From assembly GCA_017860275.1 (NCBI GenBank), contig JAFNAQ010000002.1:181089-245088 (forward strand): DNA of 64,000 nt, read 5' to 3'. Below are positions 3,721 to 60,545 of the stretch, one piece after another (positions within the stretch are counted from its first letter, which is position 1; every line of letters begins with the position of its first letter). Below the pieces are notes generated by a model. The model worked only from the letters and a program-made list of their open reading frames with translations. It was not told the DNA's origin and did not search any database. The stretch comes from Bacteroidota bacterium (GTDB taxonomy: Bacteria > Bacteroidota > Bacteroidia > Bacteroidales > P3). The translations under genes and the position numbers were made by a program.

Positions 3721-4257
3721 TTACCTTTTCCAATTCAAAGGGTTGTTTTCAATATAATTTATAATTGACCTATACATATTATCATCCTTTATAATATGAT
3801 CATAAAATCGTGATTGCCAAGAAAAATCAGCATGAATATTTCGAATATCAAATGAGGTTCTACCCTTATACCAACGAATAATCCTCGATAAATTATGTGA
3901 TAACATTGGGTTGTTGGGGATAATTTCATTATTTGACGAGACGCGATAAATCGCGTCTTTACGGGTATTATTAATAACAATAACACAATGAATATGGTCG
4001 GGCATTACAACGAAGGCATCTAATTCTACGAATGGGAATTGATTTTTTATTTCAAACAAATTATCTCTTGCAATCATACCCATTTCGGACAAAATCATTT
4101 TCCCTTCCAATATATCTCCAAAATAACATTCCCTATTCTGGGTACAAATTGTAACAAAATATGCCCCATTTTGCCCATAATCCCATCCCTGCAATCTCGC
4201 AGAAGGAATCCGATATTTATTTTGAAATTTATCCATATATAAAAAATCAACAATCAA
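3721..4257 (-). CDS. REP-associated tyrosine transposase (RAYT, Y1_Tnp/IS200-like)
   Basis: Single-strand DNA transposase-family protein of 178 residues. Visible are the N-terminal RLQGWDYGQNGAYFVTICTQNR block, the HUH metal-binding motif MPDHIHCV (His88, His90) and the C-terminal SRFYDHIIKDD block containing the likely nucleophilic Tyr, followed by YIENNPLNWKR. All are typical of RAYTs, which mobilise or process REP palindromes. Met8 (MDKFQNKYRI) is a plausible alternative start. Matching palindromes lie just upstream at 4263-4514, and one lies inside the gene at 3938-3962, encoding about residues 98-107. Intact and possibly active. Confidence 0.92.
   Translation of the reverse strand: MIVDFLYMDKFQNKYRIPSARLQGWDYGQNGAYFVTICTQNRECYFGDILEGKMILSEMGMIARDNLFEIKNQFPFVELDAFVVMPDHIHCVIVINNTRKDAIYRVSSNNEIIPNNPMLSHNLSRIIRWYKGRTSFDIRNIHADFSWQSRFYDHIIKDDNMYRSIINYIENNPLNWKR
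3938..3962 (-). repeat. REP palindrome embedded in the transposase coding sequence
   Basis: The 25-base element reads GAGACGCGATAAATCGCGTC then TTTAC on the plus strand and differs by one base from the intergenic copy at 4417-4441. It lies in frame in the RAYT gene and encodes part of TRKDAIYRVSS, just after the HUH block. Confidence 0.85.
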
Positions 4258-4262
4258 CCCCC

Positions 4263-4441
4263 GTAGAGACGCGATTTATCGCGTCTCACATAAACGCGTC
4301 TCATGAAAATTCGCGTCATTATTTATTATATCGTAATTCATTCAAACGCATTTATTTGTAATATTGTCTTTTATTTAATGAGATGCATTTATTTATTATA
4401 TCGTCGTTTATTTAATGAGACGCGATAAATCGCGTCTCTAC
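4263..4441. repeat. REPIN: inverted pair of GTAGAGACGCG-type REPs
   Basis: The left REP is at 4263-4287 (GTAGAGACGCGATTTATCGC then GTCTC). Its inverted partner is at 4417-4441, ending CTCTAC. Each is a GTAG tetranucleotide plus an imperfect palindrome, the arrangement recognised by RAYTs. The spacer holds further fragments (ACGCGTCTC at 4284-4302, repeated ATTTATTATATCGT). This explains most of the 423-base gap 4258-4680; I see no gene in it. Confidence 0.85.
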
Positions 4442-4489
4442 GATTAATCAATTATTAATCAAATCCCAATCAAAACAAATACCCAACCG

Positions 4490-4514
4490 GTAGAGACGCG
4501 ATTTATCGCGTCTC
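4490..4514 (+). repeat. single GTAGAGACGCG-type REP
   Basis: A 25-base copy identical to the one at 4263-4287, in the same orientation, 48 bases after the REPIN. The remaining sequence to 4680 is AT-rich with no recognisable feature. Confidence 0.85.
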
Positions 4515-4680: not shown

Positions 4681-7602
4681 TTACGGTGTGTGTGTTACTT
4701 TTTTTCTAATATGTAATCTGCCAATATTTACATTGCGAATTATTTTTTTAGTATCTTCTACAAATACTTTGTATGTATCTTCTATTTCTTTTAATGTAGT
4801 ACCTTTTTCCTTTCTATTCTCATAAACGAATTCGCATAAAGAATCATATGACAATTTTAATATTCTTTTTTTACAATATTTTGAATTTGTTCGAATATAC
4901 GGACAAATCATTTTTGGATATTCAATATTAAACATATAAAATGTATCATCAATAATATCTTGAAATGCAAAATCATTACGTAACATTAGTTTTTCATACT
5001 TTTTCTCGCATGGCATTACCCCCCTTGCATATTCAAGTTTTGATGCATAATTTCTAAACCAAAATTCAATATTTTTTATTATTAATTCAATATTCTTCTT
5101 AGAAACAATAATTTTTTCACCATTAATATCTGGATTATATACTAAATGCATATTTATACATTTCTTTCTAATAAAATCTACTAAAATTTCAGAATGCATG
5201 TATGAAATAGTAGCAATATTATCTTTAATTTCAAAGCTCGGAAAATCGTCATTATCATCATTTTTTGGTTCGAAAAATATTATTTCATCACTTTTCTCAA
5301 AAAAATCACCTAATTTTATTTTTCCTTCATTTTTCAGTTTAATCTCAAATTTTTCCCAATCAGAATATTGATCAATATTTTCAATATCTATATTATTTTT
5401 AATGCTATAGTAATGAATAAACATACTTGAATATTGTTTTTCTTTATCGGTTAAAGTTTCATATATATCCAATAATTGGAATAAAACCAATTTAGCCAAA
5501 TCTTTTCGAAGCTTATTTCTATAATTATTTTGCAAACTATTTCTATTAAGTGTAAGGATCTCTTTTGCATTTCCTCCCAAGATATTCACCTGAATACTAA
5601 TAAAACCTGTAAAAATACGAGCATCCTCTACAATTTGATTTCTATAAAACACCTTAGTTTCATGTGCATCACATCCAGTCGTTTTATTAAATTCAAGATT
5701 AAATTCAAGATTATTTTTATCACAAAAATATTTAAAAGAAGAATCCTTCTTATGGTTTAATTTTCCAATACTCTCATATTTTAAATCTAAATCTATTGGA
5801 CATGCTGTATCAAATTCTTCCAGCTCATCACACACCATAATTATTTCAGAGTTATGAGTCTTTTGCTTAATAAAATCGAAATTTTGTTTTACAGAAATTA
5901 AATTCTTTTTTAAATTATATTCATTATAATAGTAATAGTTAAAATAAGGAAAATCATCAAACAATTTATTGTCATCGCAGACCACTTCAAATTTTATAGT
6001 TGTACCTATCTTGTCAAACGTATTTTTTACTGTTTTTATAAGCACAGCACCATTTTTTATTCCAGCAGGATTATATAAATCTAAAATAATCTTGTTTTCT
6101 CTATTTATTTTTTTCGTTTCAATTATTACTTCATCTGTAATTAGAAATACACTTTGAAAACCTATGCCGAAAGTACCTGAAGGTTTCATCCACTCCGGCA
6201 TATTTTCAATCATCTTCCTTTTCTCGGTATTTTTATTTGAACTTCCTGTTGTGGTTAAAAAATGTATATCTTCTTTTGACATCCCTATTCCTTGATCTAT
6301 TATTGTAATATCCCATACACTAATACCATTCTTTGACTTTTCTTCATTCTTTTTAATATCTACACTTATAGGATATTTTTTACAATCCTTTAAAAAATTT
6401 TCTCTAGTGTAGCTACTTATCTCCTCTTTATTTTCCAAGTAAATTCTAAGAAAAGTTGCATCAACTGCATTTTGAAGGATCTCTCTTATACATTGATATG
6501 GTTCACGATATAATCCTGCTCCTTGAAGAAGTTCTATTGATTTTTGCGGATCAATAGAAAAGCTTGGTCTTAATTTTCCATCTATAGTATCATAGTCTTT
6601 TAGTTCAACTTTTAAATCACCCAATGTCGGCAAAAAACCATAATCAACACAAGGTACTATTTTATTCCATTTTTTCATTTGATTTGAAATTTCGGCGTCC
6701 AAAAATTCAAACCATCTGTTTGTTATATCCGCTTCTTCGTATTCTTCACATGTTGCTTTTATTTCAATTCTTTGCTTGTCAATACGAATATGTTCTATTG
6801 ATCTGTGTTTCTTATCATGAAGTACAGAATCTAATGGAATATTACTTAATGTCTGTAATATAACTTCTGAAAATCTATTATTATCCAAATCTAATAAATC
6901 CCCCAATCTCAATAAGCAAGCTATATATCTTGGGTGACAATCCTCAAAATCTATACTTGTTTCAGAAAATGGTATTTTCATAACATCTTCAAATGATTTA
7001 CCATGAGAAAGACAAATATTAGATAAAATATTAATTATTCTGCTTGGAATAGAATCACCAGGTAGTTTCAAGGAAATATCTGATATTATTGACTCTTTTG
7101 ACCTTTCAGCATGCTGTCTTCTTATAAATTCTGCAATTAAAAAACGAGAACCTTCGTAGCTCTTTGAATTAAACTCACAGTCTTTATAATAAATCTTTCC
7201 ATCTTTAATTAGTAATAGATTTGCATATTCATGCAAAGTTGATCTTGTATCGTTCTGAACATCATTCAAAAAATCTTTAAAATCATCTCCTTTAAATATT
7301 TTGTCAAAATCCTTTGCAAAAACAGCCATTCCTATATCATGATAATATGCAGAAGATAATAAAAGCCATAAATCAATAGCAGAAAAATTTTCAATTACAT
7401 CTTTTCCTACAATTCTGACAATATTATTAATGATTGTGTCTGAATGTGTTGAATCATGAAGACTATAATGCGGAAAAATATGACTAATTGTATTTAATAC
7501 TTGTGGCACATATTCTTTTGCAACCTGCCATTGCGTATAAAAAATATTAGCTCTTGTGTCCTTCGTTTTTTCCTGTAAGATATTTTCAATGTATGTTCTC
7601 AT
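4681..7602 (-). CDS. HD domain-Hsp90-like (GHKL) ATPase fusion protein, defence-associated type
   Basis: Large (973-residue) soluble protein. Residues about 1-330 form an HD-superfamily domain: His53, the YYHDIGM doublet (His88-Asp89), His164 (RRQHAER), His200 and LLRLGDLLDLDNNR (Asp235/Asp238). Residues about 345-560 form an Hsp90-type GHKL ATPase: the N-box EILQNAVDA (Glu374, Asn378), DQGIGM (Asp436) and SGTFGIGFQSVF. The C-terminal 400 residues are not assignable. HD phosphohydrolase plus Hsp90-like ATPase is an architecture I associate with bacterial conflict proteins, not with housekeeping HtpG. The gene is monocistronic, more AT-rich than the core genes, and lies between the RAYT/REP cluster and a mobile VirE cassette. 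Function is inferred only. Confidence 0.8.
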   Translation of the reverse strand: MRTYIENILQEKTKDTRANIFYTQWQVAKEYVPQVLNTISHIFPHYSLHDSTHSDTIINNIVRIVGKDVIENFSAIDLWLLLSSAYYHDIGMAVFAKDFDKIFKGDDFKDFLNDVQNDTRSTLHEYANLLLIKDGKIYYKDCEFNSKSYEGSRFLIAEFIRRQHAERSKESIISDISLKLPGDSIPSRIINILSNICLSHGKSFEDVMKIPFSETSIDFEDCHPRYIACLLRLGDLLDLDNNRFSEVILQTLSNIPLDSVLHDKKHRSIEHIRIDKQRIEIKATCEEYEEADITNRWFEFLDAEISNQMKKWNKIVPCVDYGFLPTLGDLKVELKDYDTIDGKLRPSFSIDPQKSIELLQGAGLYREPYQCIREILQNAVDATFLRIYLENKEEISSYTRENFLKDCKKYPISVDIKKNEEKSKNGISVWDITIIDQGIGMSKEDIHFLTTTGSSNKNTEKRKMIENMPEWMKPSGTFGIGFQSVFLITDEVIIETKKINRENKIILDLYNPAGIKNGAVLIKTVKNTFDKIGTTIKFEVVCDDNKLFDDFPYFNYYYYNEYNLKKNLISVKQNFDFIKQKTHNSEIIMVCDELEEFDTACPIDLDLKYESIGKLNHKKDSSFKYFCDKNNLEFNLEFNKTTGCDAHETKVFYRNQIVEDARIFTGFISIQVNILGGNAKEILTLNRNSLQNNYRNKLRKDLAKLVLFQLLDIYETLTDKEKQYSSMFIHYYSIKNNIDIENIDQYSDWEKFEIKLKNEGKIKLGDFFEKSDEIIFFEPKNDDNDDFPSFEIKDNIATISYMHSEILVDFIRKKCINMHLVYNPDINGEKIIVSKKNIELIIKNIEFWFRNYASKLEYARGVMPCEKKYEKLMLRNDFAFQDIIDDTFYMFNIEYPKMICPYIRTNSKYCKKRILKLSYDSLCEFVYENRKEKGTTLKEIEDTYKVFVEDTKKIIRNVNIGRLHIRKKVTHTP

Positions 7603-7840
7603 AATTTATTATTTTCTTCAATCCCACAAAACTACAAATTAAAATTTAACCCAAGAAATATATTTTAATGTTTTTTTATTTATTTTAGGGATTGGGGTTT
7701 TAACTGTTTTTCTTTAACTGGATTTAAGAGATAGTGAGGGTGGATTTTGATTCTGTTGGGGTGGATTTTGATGCTATTGGGGCTGTTTCTTTAATACACG
7801 GGGTTAATTCTTTGATTGACTGGCTTTAAGAGCGGTTTGG

Positions 7841-54932: not shown

Positions 54933-55937
54933 ATGCTAAAAGTAAACGACGAAGTTTATAAATACTATTTTTATTTCATTCAAGAAAGAATGAATATTTT
55001 TTGGAATAAATATGAATTAAAAAAACAACCTTGGACAAATGATATAATATTAAAAGAAAATAAGTTTACCAATGTATATAGAGCCTCCGACAGAATTAGT
55101 CAATATCTTATAAAAAATATAATATACGATAATCTGGACAGTTTTAACGAAAAAGATATTCTATTTAGAATATTGATTTTCAAAATATTCAACAAAGTTG
55201 AAACGTGGGAATATCTCGAAAATAAAATTGGACCAATATCAATCGACAACTTCAATATCTCGGAGGTAAACACATTATTAACTGAAAGAATGCATCAACT
55301 ACCAATATATAATAATGCGTATATGATGACTGGCACTCATTCAAAATATAATTATTTGACATATAAGCATGAGAAATGGCTTCAAATGGTTATGGACGAA
55401 ATAGTAAAAGAAAAAATATTTGAAAAAATACTAAGTGCGAAATCTCTTGATAGGGTTTACTTTTTATTAAGAGAACGATCTTTTATTGGAGATTTTTTAG
55501 CATATCAATACACAATTGATTTGAATTATTCTCCTGTTATTGATTTTGATGAAAATTCTTTTGTTAAAGCTGGTATCGGTTCAATCAGAGGAATAAAAAA
55601 ATGTTTTAATACTCTTGGCAATTCCTCTTTTGAAGATGCAATACGATATACTCATGACAATTTTGAATTTTATCAACAAAAATATGGATTTACTGAATTT
55701 ATTAACCTATTTGGAAGACAACCAACTTTAATCGATATTCAAAATTGTTTTTGCGAAACTGATAAATACTTGAGAGTAAAAATGCCTGAACTTCAAGTTG
55801 ACAATATTCGAATAAAACAAAAGTACAAAGTAGGTAAACCATCATTTAATTTATTTTTTCCACCAAAATGGAATATTAATAATCAAATACAAAACACATG
55901 TATACAGCAGAATACAAAGGTATTAACTCTTTTCTAG
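54933..55937 (+). CDS. putative DNA base hypermodification protein (HMUDK_hel / aGPT-Pplase, stand-alone)
   Basis: 334 residues, mostly helical. Conserved blocks I recognise from this family are YRASDRISQYLI, EKDILFRILIFKIFNKVETW, LPIYNNAYMMTG, HEKWLQMVMDE, FLAYQYTIDLNYS, VIDFDENSFVKAGIGSIRGIKKCF, AIRYTHDNFEF, FGRQPTLIDIQNCFCETDKYLRVKMPEL and RIKQKYK ... FFPPKWNIN. Relatives with a kinase part act on 5-hydroxymethyl-deoxyuridine in phage DNA as a step to hypermodified thymine. No P-loop kinase is fused here. The last 40 bases overlap the thymidylate synthase-like gene, so the two are translationally linked. First gene of a seven-gene AT-rich operon. Confidence 0.85.
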   Translation: MLKVNDEVYKYYFYFIQERMNIFWNKYELKKQPWTNDIILKENKFTNVYRASDRISQYLIKNIIYDNLDSFNEKDILFRILIFKIFNKVETWEYLENKIGPISIDNFNISEVNTLLTERMHQLPIYNNAYMMTGTHSKYNYLTYKHEKWLQMVMDEIVKEKIFEKILSAKSLDRVYFLLRERSFIGDFLAYQYTIDLNYSPVIDFDENSFVKAGIGSIRGIKKCFNTLGNSSFEDAIRYTHDNFEFYQQKYGFTEFINLFGRQPTLIDIQNCFCETDKYLRVKMPELQVDNIRIKQKYKVGKPSFNLFFPPKWNINNQIQNTCIQQNTKVLTLF

Positions 55938-56920
55938 TTGGAGCATCAAAATTACTTCTTGAGCAAGGGGTAAAAAGAGAAACTAGGGGAAAAGTTTGTT
56001 TTGAGCTGCCAGAGCCTTTCATGTTTAAAATTACAAATCCAAAGGCTAGATGGATTACAATTACTGAAAGAAAATGGAATGTTGCATTAGCTTATGCAGA
56101 ATCTCTTTGGATAGCATGTGGTAGAAATGATTTACAAATGATAAACAGATATCTTGCTAGTATGAAAGATTTTTCAGACGATGGTATCAGTTTGAGGGGC
56201 GGATATGGTCCAAGAATCAGAAAATATAATGGAAGTAATAATGACTATTTAATAAATAAATCTTTTAAAAAATCTCCGATTTCTCCTATTAATGAAATTG
56301 ATCAGCTTCAATTTGTAATTGAATGTTTAAAACAAGACATTAATACTAGACAAGCAATTATTACTATCGGTGATCCAAACAAAGATTGTTTTGAAAAGAC
56401 AGATGAATTAAAACAGACTAAAGATTTTCCTTGTACAAGAACGCTTCATTTTATGAAACACCCTACTGAAAATAAATTGAATTTAACTGTACATATGAGA
56501 TCTAACGATTTATTATGGGGTGCAAGTGCAGTAAATATATTTAATTTTACTTTCATGCAGGAATATATTTCACATATGGTAAATCTTCAGGTTGGAGAAT
56601 ATTTTCATATTGCTAATAATTTCCATTTTTATGAAGATAAAAAGCATATTATTGAAAGTATTTCAAAAGTAAATAATTATACTGATGAAAGTTATAAATA
56701 TAAATTTTCATTCAAAACATTAGAGGAATTTGATTTGAAATTAAAAGATTTGGAAAATATTGAATATGATATTTGTAATAGTAATCATAAAATGATTAAT
56801 TTCGACGATGACTTTTTTAATGATTGGTATAAAGTTATTTATCATTGGAATACCAAAAAAAATGTTGATTTTTCTAATCCAATTTTAAATGAAATAATTA
56901 AATGTAACAACTATGAATAA
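55898..56920 (+). CDS. thymidylate synthase-family protein (TS or dUMP hydroxymethylase)
   Basis: 340 residues, longer than E. coli ThyA (264). The catalytic cysteine lies in DFPCTRTLHF (Cys179); the phosphate/base site is HMRSNDLLWGASAVNIFNF with Arg201, Asp204 and Asn213. Asn at the base-selecting position argues for dUMP and against dCMP. The nucleophile context (FPC) and the one-residue-longer SND-to-N spacing differ from housekeeping ThyA (PPCH, GLPFNIA). It is plausibly a dUMP hydroxymethylase making hmdUMP for the upstream protein. It starts inside the upstream gene (40-base overlap) and overlaps the next by 8 bases. Confidence 0.85.
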   Translation: MYTAEYKGINSFLVGASKLLLEQGVKRETRGKVCFELPEPFMFKITNPKARWITITERKWNVALAYAESLWIACGRNDLQMINRYLASMKDFSDDGISLRGGYGPRIRKYNGSNNDYLINKSFKKSPISPINEIDQLQFVIECLKQDINTRQAIITIGDPNKDCFEKTDELKQTKDFPCTRTLHFMKHPTENKLNLTVHMRSNDLLWGASAVNIFNFTFMQEYISHMVNLQVGEYFHIANNFHFYEDKKHIIESISKVNNYTDESYKYKFSFKTLEEFDLKLKDLENIEYDICNSNHKMINFDDDFFNDWYKVIYHWNTKKNVDFSNPILNEIIKCNNYE

Positions 56921-57206
56921 AGAAAGTATTACAAAAATTACTGATGAAATTACAAAATTGCTTTTAAAAAAAAACCAAGACTACGGCGGCGCAAGTTTTG
57001 ATTTAGGATTAAATGGCAACATGGTTCATTTATGGGATAAAATAAGCAGGTACAGGAACTTAATTAATATTGACAATGAACCTAATTTTGAATGCATTGA
57101 AGATACATTGAAAGATATTATTGGGTATGCAATAATTGGGTTGCATATTATACATGATGATTCAGTAATTCATAAAATTTATGGTGATTATTTAAAAAGA
57201 CTATGA
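56913..57206 (+). CDS. DUF1599 / nucleotide modification associated domain 1 (Nmad1) protein
   Basis: 97-residue, MazG-like all-helical protein. KKNQDYGGASFDLGLNGNMVHLWDKISRYRNLI (core KNQDYGGASFD and MVHLWDKISR) and DTLKDIIGYAIIGLHII match the DUF1599 family, which recurs beside phage-type DNA base modification genes. It may clear or channel modified nucleotides; that role is inferred. It overlaps the preceding stop by 8 bases and the following HD gene by 4 (ATGA), so it is a firm operon member. Confidence 0.85.
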   Translation: MNKESITKITDEITKLLLKKNQDYGGASFDLGLNGNMVHLWDKISRYRNLINIDNEPNFECIEDTLKDIIGYAIIGLHIIHDDSVIHKIYGDYLKRL

Positions 57207-58711
57207 ATAAAAATATAAAAAATTCGTTAATCGGAGTTCGATTAAACAAAGATCGTTTGTATGATGACGTTATAAAACAAATAGCTGAATCAGATTTACC
57301 ATACATTAGTGAATCTAGTAAAAAAAATTTACTTTCTTTTAAGGATAATGATATAAGTAACCTAAAAAAATTGTGGAAAAATTTACTTATTGATTCTATT
57401 TGCATACTAAAAATAAATGATAGTAGAGAAAAAATATATAGAGATGCAAAAAAATATGAAAATAAATTTAAATCCAATTTTGATGAGATAAGAATGACAA
57501 GTTCATATGGTATTGATGAGATAAGTAATTATTTTGATGACTTTATTGTTTTTGAATCTGTCTTATATGGCACAGATGAACATTATAGAGATCATGTTGA
57601 TCATGTTTTACAAGTTTGGGCAATTGGAGTTAGTCTACTTTCGCAGAATAAGTTTACTCTGAGTGAAGGTTATGAAATAAATATGGAATCCTATTTTCAT
57701 TATAATATTACTGAGGATACTGAGGATACTAAGGATACTAAGGATACTAAGGATACTAAGGATACTAAGAATACTGAGGATACTAAGGATACTAAGAATA
57801 ATCAAATTTCACAGAGTGAAATATTTGCAATGTGGACAATTATTTCATTATGTCATGATTTAGGTTATCCTATTGAAAAAACAGCAAAAATAAACACTCA
57901 AGCAAAAAAAATTATTGGACATTTTGGAAATATGAACTTTAATGAATTGAGCTACAGTTTTGATATTTTTAATACATTTCTTGTTGATAAATTTTTAAAT
58001 ATTATTTCATCGAAAGCATCAACAATAATAAATAATACAAGTAAAGATGATAAAGGTAATAAAGTTGATAAATGTGGAATTACAAAAATACAAACGAAAT
58101 ATAGAGATAAATTTTCCAAATCATTAGAAGAATATAAACATGGTATTTTTTCAAGTTTACTTCTTTTTAAAAACCTAACATATTTCTTAGAAACAGATTA
58201 CTATTCTTCGGAAGATAGTCTTTCTGAAGAAGACCTTCGCCAATTTTATATTAGAAAAGAAATTCTTAGAGCTATTGCTGCCCATACTTGTCCTAAAATT
58301 TATCATTTGTCTTTAAATTCACTTTCATTTTTATTGATATTATGTGATGAATTGCAAGAGTGGAATAGACCTAAATTTGATGAATTACTAAATAGAAAAT
58401 ATGGAAATGAACCCTATATCGAAATAAAGAATTTTTCTATTGATAATGATCAAAAAATAAAAATACAATTTAAATATGATAAAATTGAAAAAGAACACTT
58501 GAAATATTTTATTGATAATAAATTTAAAAATATTCACTGTCTATTGAGAAGCGCAAAGGATGATAAGGATCGTAATGTCAATTTTATTTGGGAAATAATC
58601 GCAAATAATATAACATATACTTTAAATTTTGATTCAAAAAATGATTCTTTTGATATAATGAAATTCACAGAAACATCTGATGGTAAAGAAACAGCATATA
58701 AATTATACTAA
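57203..58711 (+). CDS. HD-superfamily phosphohydrolase with minisatellite insertion
   Basis: 502 residues. HD-type ligands: HYRDHVDHVLQVW (His127, His131, His134), LCHDLGYPIEK (His218-Asp219), and downstream EYKHGIFSSLLL, AAHTCPKIYH and FLLILCDELQEWNRP (late Asp). Between the first His and the HD pair lies a hydrophilic insert of ten Thr-x-Asp/Asn triplets (residues 170-199) coded by 9-bp tandem repeats. The C-terminal 100 residues are beta-rich and unassigned. Possibly a nucleotide or cyclic-nucleotide hydrolase controlling the TIR gene six bases downstream; the substrate is unknown. Very Lys/Asn/Ile-rich, AT-biased codons. Confidence 0.82.
   Translation: MNKNIKNSLIGVRLNKDRLYDDVIKQIAESDLPYISESSKKNLLSFKDNDISNLKKLWKNLLIDSICILKINDSREKIYRDAKKYENKFKSNFDEIRMTSSYGIDEISNYFDDFIVFESVLYGTDEHYRDHVDHVLQVWAIGVSLLSQNKFTLSEGYEINMESYFHYNITEDTEDTKDTKDTKDTKDTKNTEDTKDTKNNQISQSEIFAMWTIISLCHDLGYPIEKTAKINTQAKKIIGHFGNMNFNELSYSFDIFNTFLVDKFLNIISSKASTIINNTSKDDKGNKVDKCGITKIQTKYRDKFSKSLEEYKHGIFSSLLLFKNLTYFLETDYYSSEDSLSEEDLRQFYIRKEILRAIAAHTCPKIYHLSLNSLSFLLILCDELQEWNRPKFDELLNRKYGNEPYIEIKNFSIDNDQKIKIQFKYDKIEKEHLKYFIDNKFKNIHCLLRSAKDDKDRNVNFIWEIIANNITYTLNFDSKNDSFDIMKFTETSDGKETAYKLY
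57710..57799 (+). repeat. minisatellite of ten 9-bp units (ACTAAGGAT type)
   Basis: Ten units from 57710 to 57799: ACTGAGGAT x2, ACTAAGGAT x4, ACTAAGAAT, ACTGAGGAT, ACTAAGGAT, ACTAAGAAT. A unit of nine keeps the HD protein frame whatever the copy number. Confidence 0.95.
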
Positions 58712-58717
58712 TGTGAT

Positions 58718-59197
58718 ATGGAAAAGAAGCATAATATTTTCATCAGTCACCATGGAAAAGACGACGAACATGTTCAGAGACTCAAACAAAGATTAAAGGA
58801 TGAGGGTTACTTTATTCGTAATAGTTCAATTGATAGTACAAAACATCGACCTGTAAGACCAAATGATAAAGTTATTGGAAGATTACTTCGAAAAGGGATA
58901 AGTTGGGCAGGAACTTTCATCTGTTTAATTGGCTCCGAAACGCATTCAAGACCATGGGTTAACTATGAAATAAAACAAGCATATTTACAAGGGAAAAGAA
59001 TTGTTGGTATATATTTGCATGGATGCAAAAATACGGTAGAATTACCCGAAGCATTTAAAAGATATGGAGGAACACCGTTGGGTTGGAACTCATTGAATAA
59101 ACTTGGAGATGCTATGGCTGGGGAAAATTGTGAAGCTGAAAATCCCGATAGTTCTTCTCGTGAACCAATATATAATATTATTAGAATACCATGTTAA
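58718..59197 (+). CDS. TIR domain protein (ThsB-like, DUF1863 / MTH538 type)
   Basis: 159 residues, one TIR-fold domain: HNIFISHHGKDDEHVQRLKQRL at the N-terminus, WAGTFICLIGSETHSRPWVNYEIKQAYLQGKRIVGIYLHG (core PWVNYEI with the likely catalytic Glu84). This subtype includes ThsB of Thoeris, which turns NAD+ into a cyclic ADP-ribose signal. The stretch after residue 110 (LPEAFKRYGGTPLGWN) also fits ThsB-like proteins. No ThsA-like SIR2-SLOG effector is present; an unusual membrane protein lies two genes downstream. It lies 6 bases after the HD gene. Confidence 0.88.
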   Translation: MEKKHNIFISHHGKDDEHVQRLKQRLKDEGYFIRNSSIDSTKHRPVRPNDKVIGRLLRKGISWAGTFICLIGSETHSRPWVNYEIKQAYLQGKRIVGIYLHGCKNTVELPEAFKRYGGTPLGWNSLNKLGDAMAGENCEAENPDSSSREPIYNIIRIPC

Positions 59198-59207
59198 ATA
59201 CACGCAT

Positions 59208-59846
59208 ATGCCTTATTATTCATATAAATTAGAACACGATTTTGGATTAGCTCCAAATCCTTTTGGTAGATATTGCACACTTGCTGTTTGCAAATCACAT
59301 ATTAGAAATAATAAAAAATTAAACATTGGTGATTGGGTAATTGGAACTGGAAGTAAAGGGTTAGGCTGTCTTCATCATTTAATTTTTGCTATGAAAGTTG
59401 AAGAGAAGATTAATTTCAATCAATATTGGGAAGATGAAAGGTTTCAATATAAAAAACCTGTACTAAATGGGAGCTTAGTACAAATGTATGGTGATAACTT
59501 TTATCATTTAGATCATGTCTCGAAAAAATGGATACAAGAGAACTCAGCACACTCCATGGAGGACGGAACTCCGAATATTGGTCATTCTAATAGAGATACA
59601 GGTGGTGAGTTTGTATTGATATCTGAAAAATTTTATTATTTTGGAGATGACTGTCGTAGAATACCAAACGAATATCTAGATGTTTGTTGCGAAGGTAGAG
59701 ATATGAAAAGTTCTTCGATTTCAAATGAACTTGGTGATAGATTTATTGAATGGCTTGAATCTAATCATAGACAGGGAATACATGGTGATCCGATTAATTG
59801 GGGAGATTATCAATTAGAAAAAATTGAATACGAAGTTGAGATTTAA
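59208..59846 (+). CDS. Nmad2 (nucleotide modification associated domain 2) protein
   Basis: 212 residues from ATG 59208 (MPYYSYKLEHDFG); the longer frame back to 59103 overlaps the TIR gene and lacks family similarity. The N-terminal GLAPNPFGRYCTLAVCKSHIR and IGDWVIGTGSKGLG are the Nmad2 hallmarks; further SMEDGTPNIGHSNRDTG and YFGDDCRRIP follow. Nmad domains were defined by their linkage to DNA base modification genes; biochemistry is unknown to me. Ten bases after the TIR gene. Its presence ties the TIR half of the operon to the base-modification half. Confidence 0.85.
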   Translation: MPYYSYKLEHDFGLAPNPFGRYCTLAVCKSHIRNNKKLNIGDWVIGTGSKGLGCLHHLIFAMKVEEKINFNQYWEDERFQYKKPVLNGSLVQMYGDNFYHLDHVSKKWIQENSAHSMEDGTPNIGHSNRDTGGEFVLISEKFYYFGDDCRRIPNEYLDVCCEGRDMKSSSISNELGDRFIEWLESNHRQGIHGDPINWGDYQLEKIEYEVEI

Positions 59847-59885
59847 TATCATAATGTATTTGAAAAATATAACTTTACACGAAAA

Positions 59886-60545
59886 ATGAATGACACAACT
59901 TCTTTAGAAATTATTAAATTGTCTTTTGATAGTAATCAGCCTTCAATCACTCTTGCAAGTAATTGGATATTCATTATTATTGTTTTTGCTATTATTATTC
60001 TTTTGTTTAGTTTGAAAAAATATTATTCTAGGATATTTCAACATCGCTTGCAAAGTATGGAAATTGAAATATCTGGAACTCCTAAAATGACTTTTAAAGT
60101 TGAGCGAAATTATGAAAATCTATATATTGCAAATCGAATTTATATTGAATTAACGACTAGAAAAGCTGCAATTCCTATTGATGAAAATAATGATAGTATT
60201 GAAGAAATATACAATTCATGGTATAAACTATTTGGAATTATTAGGGATGAAATCAAAACAGTTCCAGGAAAATACCTAAAAGACCATGATTCAACAAAAG
60301 CATTAATAGGTTTAACACGAAAAATATTAAATGATGGCTTAAGACCACATTTAACTGAACATCAAGCTAGATTTAGAAATTGGTTAGAGAAAGCAAAAAG
60401 TGATCCAAATAACTTAAATCTTTCACCTCAAGATCTCCAAAAGAAATATCCTGATTATGAAAAATTAGTTACTTCCATGAAAGCGGTAAATGTTATTCTG
60501 ATAAAATATGCGGAAGAGCTAGACAAATTGATAATGAGAAAATAA
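59886..60545 (+). CDS. single-pass membrane protein, possible effector
   Basis: 219 residues. A short lumenal N-terminus precedes one membrane helix at about residues 27-43 (WIFIIIVFAIIILLFSL), followed by a cytoplasmic helical domain (FKVERNYENLYIANRIYIELTTRKAAIPI, IYNSWYKLFGIIRDEIKTVPG, LNDGLRPHLTEHQARFRNWLEKA; no enzymatic motif). 39 bases after the Nmad2 gene and of the same AT-rich composition, so probably the last operon gene. The family is not recognised. A membrane-disrupting effector triggered by a TIR product is one possibility, unsupported beyond context. Confidence 0.75.
   Translation: MNDTTSLEIIKLSFDSNQPSITLASNWIFIIIVFAIIILLFSLKKYYSRIFQHRLQSMEIEISGTPKMTFKVERNYENLYIANRIYIELTTRKAAIPIDENNDSIEEIYNSWYKLFGIIRDEIKTVPGKYLKDHDSTKALIGLTRKILNDGLRPHLTEHQARFRNWLEKAKSDPNNLNLSPQDLQKKYPDYEKLVTSMKAVNVILIKYAEELDKLIMRK

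Follow-up and report, generated by a model that had tools for sequence, protein, structure and literature searches.

What is the function of a gene that joins an HD domain to an Hsp90-type ATPase and stands alone in an AT-rich stretch of a Bacteroidota genome? The window, by which we mean the whole stretch of 64,000 nucleotides that was analysed, contains an intact minus-strand ORF for 973 aa at exactly 4681-7602, present in single copy in its own genome. A first-pass annotation, made from the sequence letters, had delimited the same ORF (leaving out its strand) and had suggested a single-gene anti-phage system in a neighbourhood of defence genes. Its account of the ORF, the named residues, the flanks and the AT-richness stands; the size of the HD residue set, the extent of the uncharacterised C-terminus and the defence surroundings have to be revised. 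A profile search resolved the protein into Pfam HD-CE joined to an Hsp90-type ATPase, and we describe it by the following features:

4681..7602, minus strand: HD-CE / Hsp90-type ATPase gene, 973 aa, intact
6685..7476, minus strand: HD-CE domain, residues 43-306 (PF24391, E 1.1e-54; conservation in 116 homologues; AF2 model)
5359..6549, minus strand: Hsp90-type ATPase, GHKL nucleotide-binding and middle domain, residues 352-748 (profiles, conservation, fold match)
4684..5358, minus strand: C-terminal region, residues 749-973, without Pfam family or recognised fold; a candidate sensor (inferred)
7627..7634, minus strand: possible own promoter element TAGTTTTG, 24 bases upstream of the ATG, read from the sequence

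The upstream element fits TAnnTTTG, which we take to be the consensus of the Bacteroidota -7 element, and may be a promoter of the gene's own; in a promoter scan such sites were no more frequent than chance.

The HD-CE profile (PF24391) matched with 186.3 bits against a curated cut-off of 27 and was covered from position 1 to 262 of its 263 positions. For residue conservation we used an alignment of 116 homologues, from which ORFs shorter than 700 aa were excluded and L145 and L148 left out as the same records as L057 and L052 (the broken copy L067 enters as a gapped row with its 742-aa piece only, and both pieces of L126 fall below the length limit). Both active-site residue sets of the protein are kept in nearly all of these homologues. 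In the HD domain, H49 and H53 are found in 113 (the remaining rows, L067, L162 and L087, are gapped), H88, D89, R161, H164 and H200 in 114 (L067 and L162 being gapped), and D235 and R243 in 115 (the remaining row being gapped), so that each of them is unchanged wherever the alignment row has a letter. H53, H88-D89 and D235 form the H...HD...D metal-ligand pattern of HD superfamily phosphohydrolases, and by this sequence pattern the domain is a member of that superfamily. Two extra histidines, H164 and H200, lie between the HD motif and the last aspartate, an arrangement that we take to be the mark of the two-metal HD class; the order H-HD-H-H-D presumably resembles that of the two-metal HD phosphodiesterases PgpH and HD-GYP. 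His53, His88-Asp89, His164 and Asp235, like Glu374, Asn378, Asp436 and GTFGIGF (476-482) further downstream, lie just where the first-pass annotation had placed them, but its HD set was too small, His49 and His200 being invariant as well. Because these two are also kept, the site looks like that of a two-metal phosphohydrolase or phosphodiesterase, and the domain probably binds two metals.

Comparison with solved structures gave a less specific picture. The best match of the HD profile was to class I cyclic-nucleotide phosphodiesterases, weakly (E 0.006) and across profile positions 48-100 only, with E 0.23 for the best single stretch. An AF2 model of residues 1-335 (mean pLDDT 94.6) was closest in structural comparison to the HD domain of a PPX/GppA exopolyphosphatase (8jgx_B; Z 13.7, rmsd 4.2, 185 aligned) and also matched the phosphodiesterase 4i15_A (Z 12.0, rmsd 4.8, 225 aligned), Z scores of 12-14 lying in the range where helical folds may agree through a common arrangement. 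Foldseek with the same model returned no match at E <= 0.001; SAMHD1 chains appeared in its list only at E >0.5, and SAMHD1 was absent among the 50 matches listed in the structural comparison. A dNTPase-like nucleotide hydrolase gains no support from these searches, whose weak matches are to class I phosphodiesterases and the PPX/GppA HD domain.

The second module is an Hsp90-type ATPase. HATPase_c_3 (Pfam) matches residues 371-509 (E 1.4e-07), and NCBIfam Hsp90 models match at E 1.2e-18 and 4.9e-13, both under their equivalog cut-offs (HtpG, 48.4 bits against 371; PRK14083, 66.9 against 455). The Glu/Asn of GHKL motif I, the DxGxG of motif II and the glycines of motif III (FGIG, 478-481) are all present, with N378, D381, G479 and G481 in 116 of 116 homologues, D436 in 115 and E374 in 114 (L119 is a row that has neither E374 nor D436), which bears out the complete GHKL set reported earlier. 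In a model of the whole protein, built from 28 sequences (mean pLDDT 79.7), residues 352-748 match the N-terminal and middle domains of Hsp90, with TRAP1 (7kcl_B; Z 21.1, rmsd 4.3, 322 aligned), HSP90B (8eob_A; Z 20.8, rmsd 4.4, 322 aligned) and HtpG, taken as a chain from an integrative model (9a6t_B; Z 21.4, rmsd 5.0, 329 aligned) among the matches. A profile of 28 homologues found HtpG at E 4.5e-18, across its N-terminal and middle domains, and aligned R687, invariant in 28/28, with an arginine of the HtpG middle domain that we take to be the known catalytic one. We conclude that the protein has the Hsp90 N-M fold, HtpG-type arginine included, and that it is not an HtpG equivalog. It has the GHKL domain, the middle domain and its arginine in common with Hsp90, HtpG and TRAP1, whereas the extra N-terminal HD domain, the unrecognised C-terminal region and the accessory distribution described below set it apart from them.

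Since the Hsp90 match extends over residues 352-748, the 400-residue C-terminus that had been called uncharacterised shrinks to residues 749-973: more than half of it is Hsp90 middle domain with R687, and the remainder is indeed matchless. Structure prediction, which the first-pass annotation had proposed for this part, thus resolved the middle domain as far as residue 748, and residues 749-973 were predicted mostly with low confidence. An Hsp90 C-terminal dimerisation domain was not recognised there, but GHKL ATPases took up the list of the fold search, which therefore hardly probed this end of the protein. Pfam scans of 111 homologue C-termini gave three families with one member each and no convincing effector domain. 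That this region is a sensor is a guess.

Several defence proteins share parts of this architecture. In VcSduA (GHKL-Shedu / paraMORC3), a GHKL ATPase is thought to control an enzyme domain, and the E27A substitution abolished defence (excerpt of PMC12137116). On the same excerpt, VcSduA is likewise a single protein with a GHKL ATPase and an enzyme domain, but combines a MORC-type GHKL module with a C-terminal PD-(D/E)xK nuclease, whereas the window protein combines an Hsp90-type GHKL module with an N-terminal HD domain. Clover CloA and the defence dGTPases provide examples of an HD-domain enzyme as a defence effector; CloA binds Mg2+ via H69, H117, D118 and D242, carries an H126/E129 dyad and has a partner NTase (excerpt of PMC12265719). 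Compared with CloA as given there, the window HD domain has a larger invariant set (H53, H88, D89, H164, H200 and D235, with H49), and its K97 and D100 sit at the spacing of the CloA dyad after the HD motif, counted from the published CloA residue numbers. The HD domain also matched RT_UG24, the DRT UG24 protein (E 6.6e-16, model positions 693-920 of 1036), with which the window protein has the HD stretch in common but not the reverse transcriptase. This stretch and weak short stretches of TmtA were the only matches in PADLOC-DB 2.0.0, with no match to the whole protein. The window protein is therefore an HD-CE member outside any PADLOC system tested, and PF24391, which it matches over nearly its full length, is a domain family rather than a tested system. 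A literature search of titles and abstract beginnings, with subscription papers mostly outside its reach, found no paper testing an HD + Hsp90 protein in defence, and a full-text search for HD-CE gave no paper on such proteins by title. Term searches found no description of an HD + Hsp90 protein in the accessible parts of PMC13092281, PMC3710099, PMC8195603, PMC11090510 and PMC7159879, a figure legend in the first of these naming HATPase among the domains of predicted systems; the searched terms were absent from PMC10853773 and PMC12839542.

The distribution of the gene is that of an accessory gene. At E <= 1e-10 its own genome was the only positive one among 61 searched, with none of ten other members of the genus (two of them <90% complete) encoding a homologue, and a protein search of a phylum sample found it in 11 of 395 genomes, its own included. 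Homologues in conserved housekeeping positions, which had been named at first pass as evidence against a defence role, are thus not what we observe. The HD-CE profile exceeded its cut-off in 62 of the 395 genomes and reached at least 100 bits in 21; the weaker matches are mostly frames of ~500 aa that look, judged by length only, like ordinary HD proteins, and among 14 named control genomes one had an HD-CE match, below the cut-off. A scan of genome contigs that used one protein as query gave no confirmed relative, whereas an alignment-based scan succeeded: the best 80 of its 360 loci come from Bacteroidota, Pseudomonadota, Bacillota, Spirochaetota and others, plus the archaeon Methanosarcina. 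A distant DNA search with two relatives found no homologues in E. coli. Mobile copies comprise 17 viral-contig loci, five plasmid records and one phage record marked unverified. In a 41-row tree the window protein groups with Bacteroidales, Hymenobacter plasmid and Fibrobacter copies (98/99), and adjoins copies from Pseudomonadota and viral contigs at 94/89 and 94/91, values slightly under the tool's mark; several long branches make the deep placement unsure. The gene is accessory, sporadic in the phylum and scattered over many phyla.

At home, the gene stands alone, separated from its neighbours by gaps of 424 and 521 bases. The 1-kb bin at 5001-6000 has the lowest GC content of all 64 (24.3%, against a window mean of 32.2%), and the flanks are those reported before, a RAYT gene with REP-like palindromes on one side (its product scores below the NCBIfam cut-off but above that of Pfam Y1_Tnp) and, on the other, a gene for a BT4734/VapE ('VirE') protein. 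The RAYT gene and its palindromes occupy 3721-4514. Of the 7 exact copies of the palindrome that the genome has, 3 fall within 4266-4514; a further, degenerate one is embedded in the RAYT ORF near 3938-3958. What did not hold was the placing of this locus among defence genes: PADLOC on the 47 other window proteins gave 13 families, none of them matched by more than 2 proteins, and revealed no coherent multi-gene system, at a rate per protein not below that of our control set. In 9/9 genomes of genus relatives a conserved 351-aa gene comes after mutL (in two via one small ORF; G009 is outside this set), and recN comes next in 8/9, in one of them cut by the contig end. In the genome under study the order after mutL is broken from 3361, and the 351-aa gene lies ~20 kb from mutL on the opposite strand. 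A clean insertion at an empty site was considered but not borne out: the displaced gene points to rearrangement rather than a simply inserted island.

The neighbourhoods of homologues, in contrast to the home locus, are rich in defence genes. At 1e-10, PADLOC matched 172 families among 146 neighbours at 15 homologue loci and 20 among 143 control proteins, a ratio that overstates protein numbers since PADLOC models are redundant and no family matched more than 4 of the 146 neighbours. The 15 loci are those usable among 22 fetched (others lay on short contigs or were weak), the neighbours number 146 after removal of a single long protein from the 147, and the control regions were hand-picked at round coordinates on the same contigs. 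A lack of defence enrichment, the other finding that was to speak against the first-pass reading, was thus not seen, the excess being one of model families, not proteins. Around the query's own subfamily, 164 PADLOC families matched among 148 neighbours (148 of 160 proteins, the rows of L080 and L150 being dropped; this set is without a matched control); the 25 families listed include Type I and IIG R-M, AbiEii and GajA.

A second line of evidence comes from prophages. The interval between gpA and gpQ is a hotspot for anti-phage systems in P2-like phages of E. coli (excerpt of PMC9122126). At three of the 17 viral loci (L153, L154 and L166), the placements established so far, the HD-CE/Hsp90 gene lies in a P2-like prophage between a gpA-type replication nickase gene and a gpQ-type portal gene. 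It is the only ORF >100 aa in this interval at L154 and the only one >80 aa at L166, and L153 has one more, of 251 aa. L153 and L154 belong to the wider clade of the window protein in the 41-row tree; L166 is divergent, with 25% identity.

Since its homologues lie beside anti-virus genes and inside prophages, the gene probably encodes a virus-defence switch. Defence is the best supported reading, on the basis of association: the anti-phage interpretation is favoured by the accessory distribution, by the enrichment near homologues, by their operon-like partners (listed below) and prophage positions, by the conservation of both active-site sets together with the Hsp90 N-M match, and by the HD match to the DRT protein RT_UG24. 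It is not favoured by the home surroundings, and the absence of a PADLOC model for the whole protein counts against it. Action as a single gene gained no clear support, homologue loci with and without a close same-strand ORF being about equally frequent (52 and 50 of 102). We give a probability of about 0.5 to the reading that the gene was acquired horizontally and serves in defence, most likely against phages, with a coupled ATPase-HD mechanism as follows. In the scheme that we infer, including its metal content, dimer closure, cue, coupling, substrate and outcome, the N-M module (352-748) would form an ATP-driven dimeric clamp, which together with the variable C-terminal region (749-973) would detect a sign of infection, perhaps a phage protein in the course of folding or assembly. 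By closing with ATP bound, the clamp would pair two N-terminal HD domains and so turn on the two-metal active site, which could then hydrolyse a phosphodiester or nucleotide (a signal nucleotide, the dNTP pool or nucleic acid), stopping phage multiplication, probably through growth arrest. More tentatively, such proteins may constitute a widespread, unnamed kind of bacterial and archaeal immune switch made of one polypeptide, whose Hsp90-type clamp senses phage 'clients' and on closing activates a fused two-metal HD phosphodiesterase.

The gene might instead encode an accessory regulator or maturation chaperone for defence effectors that are encoded with it or close by: its Hsp90 module would govern their assembly, its HD domain would trim a signal, and stand-alone copies would serve effectors elsewhere. 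The Hsp90 fold would suit such a helper, which would be expected in operon-like order with systems as different as Lamassu/ABC-3C, OLD-like, PDC-S06, Type III/IIG R-M and Hma. A same-strand ORF within 120 bp is present at 52 of 102 testable homologue loci, and operon-like partners (same strand, <=120 bp; one member per pair scanned, the other alike by sequence) include an ATPase of an LmuB / ABC-3C set (LmuB/LmuA, Lamassu; L048, L143), OLD/GajA/AriA-like proteins (L094, L102), PDC-S06 (L099, L114), a Type III methylase (L128, L133), HmaB (L093), a Type IIG protein (L088) and RloB (L071). The ten partners scanned, one of which (a 200-aa protein at L102) had no family match, were chosen for their defence-like look and so illustrate the enrichment rather than measure it; moreover, the ORFs were taken as longest-first open frames and not from a trained gene finder, so that some neighbours and partners are probably spurious. 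The other 50 of the 102 loci have no such ORF, the window gene stands alone, and the copies at L154 and L166 are the sole sizeable ORFs of their prophage intervals, all of which makes the helper function unlikely.

We consider it distinctly improbable that the protein serves some other purpose of mobile elements (element maintenance, inter-prophage competition or counter-defence) and travels with defence genes. The plasmid, prophage and phage copies would fit, as would neighbour clusters that on inspection by eye look like tyrosine recombinases (near 14 of 121 loci) and serine recombinases (near 10), one member carrying a recombinase annotation, but operon-like order with R-M and Lamassu-like genes and the spread across many phyla and an archaeon argue against it. 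Quite improbable, too, is an off-switch in which an HD phosphodiesterase removes a signalling nucleotide and thereby restrains or ends a signalling response. It would account for the HxxxH + HD pattern, the weak resemblance to class I cyclic-nucleotide phosphodiesterases in profile and fold, the ligand order presumably shared with PgpH/HD-GYP enzymes and single neighbours annotated as nucleotidyltransferases (L013, AbiEii type; L014); yet inspection of the 45 largest neighbour clusters by eye revealed no cyclase or nucleotidyltransferase cluster, and an off-switch alone does not explain lone copies in prophage hotspots. A housekeeping Hsp90 paralogue or HD metabolic enzyme, although both domains have housekeeping relatives, is hardly credible and was rejected because of the sporadic distribution (0/10 genus relatives, 11/395 phylum genomes), the protein also scoring below the HtpG and PRK14083 equivalog cut-offs.

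If the defence reading is true, an Hsp90-type machine would join the STAND, AAA, SMC-like and MORC-like ATPases of bacterial immunity, a gene whose small size allows direct testing would tie a chaperone fold to infection sensing, and the annotated HD-CE family would gain a testable function.

Three further observations concern gene arrangements. At L048, L143, L051 and L098 the HD-CE/Hsp90 gene has SMC-like ATPases nearby that belong to a single cluster, and the gene order takes two forms; the set at L048, the one scanned, is ABC-3C / Lamassu-like by family scan. Clostridium uliginosum carries three HD-CE/Hsp90 homologues in tandem within 12 kb (L110:2368-13867). Elsewhere in the window, an AT-rich plus-strand cassette at 54933-60542 encodes a 5-hmdU DNA kinase (PF18723), a thymidylate-synthase-like protein, a 502-aa protein and Nmad2 (PF18753), a set of the thymidine-hypermodification type on a bacterial contig.
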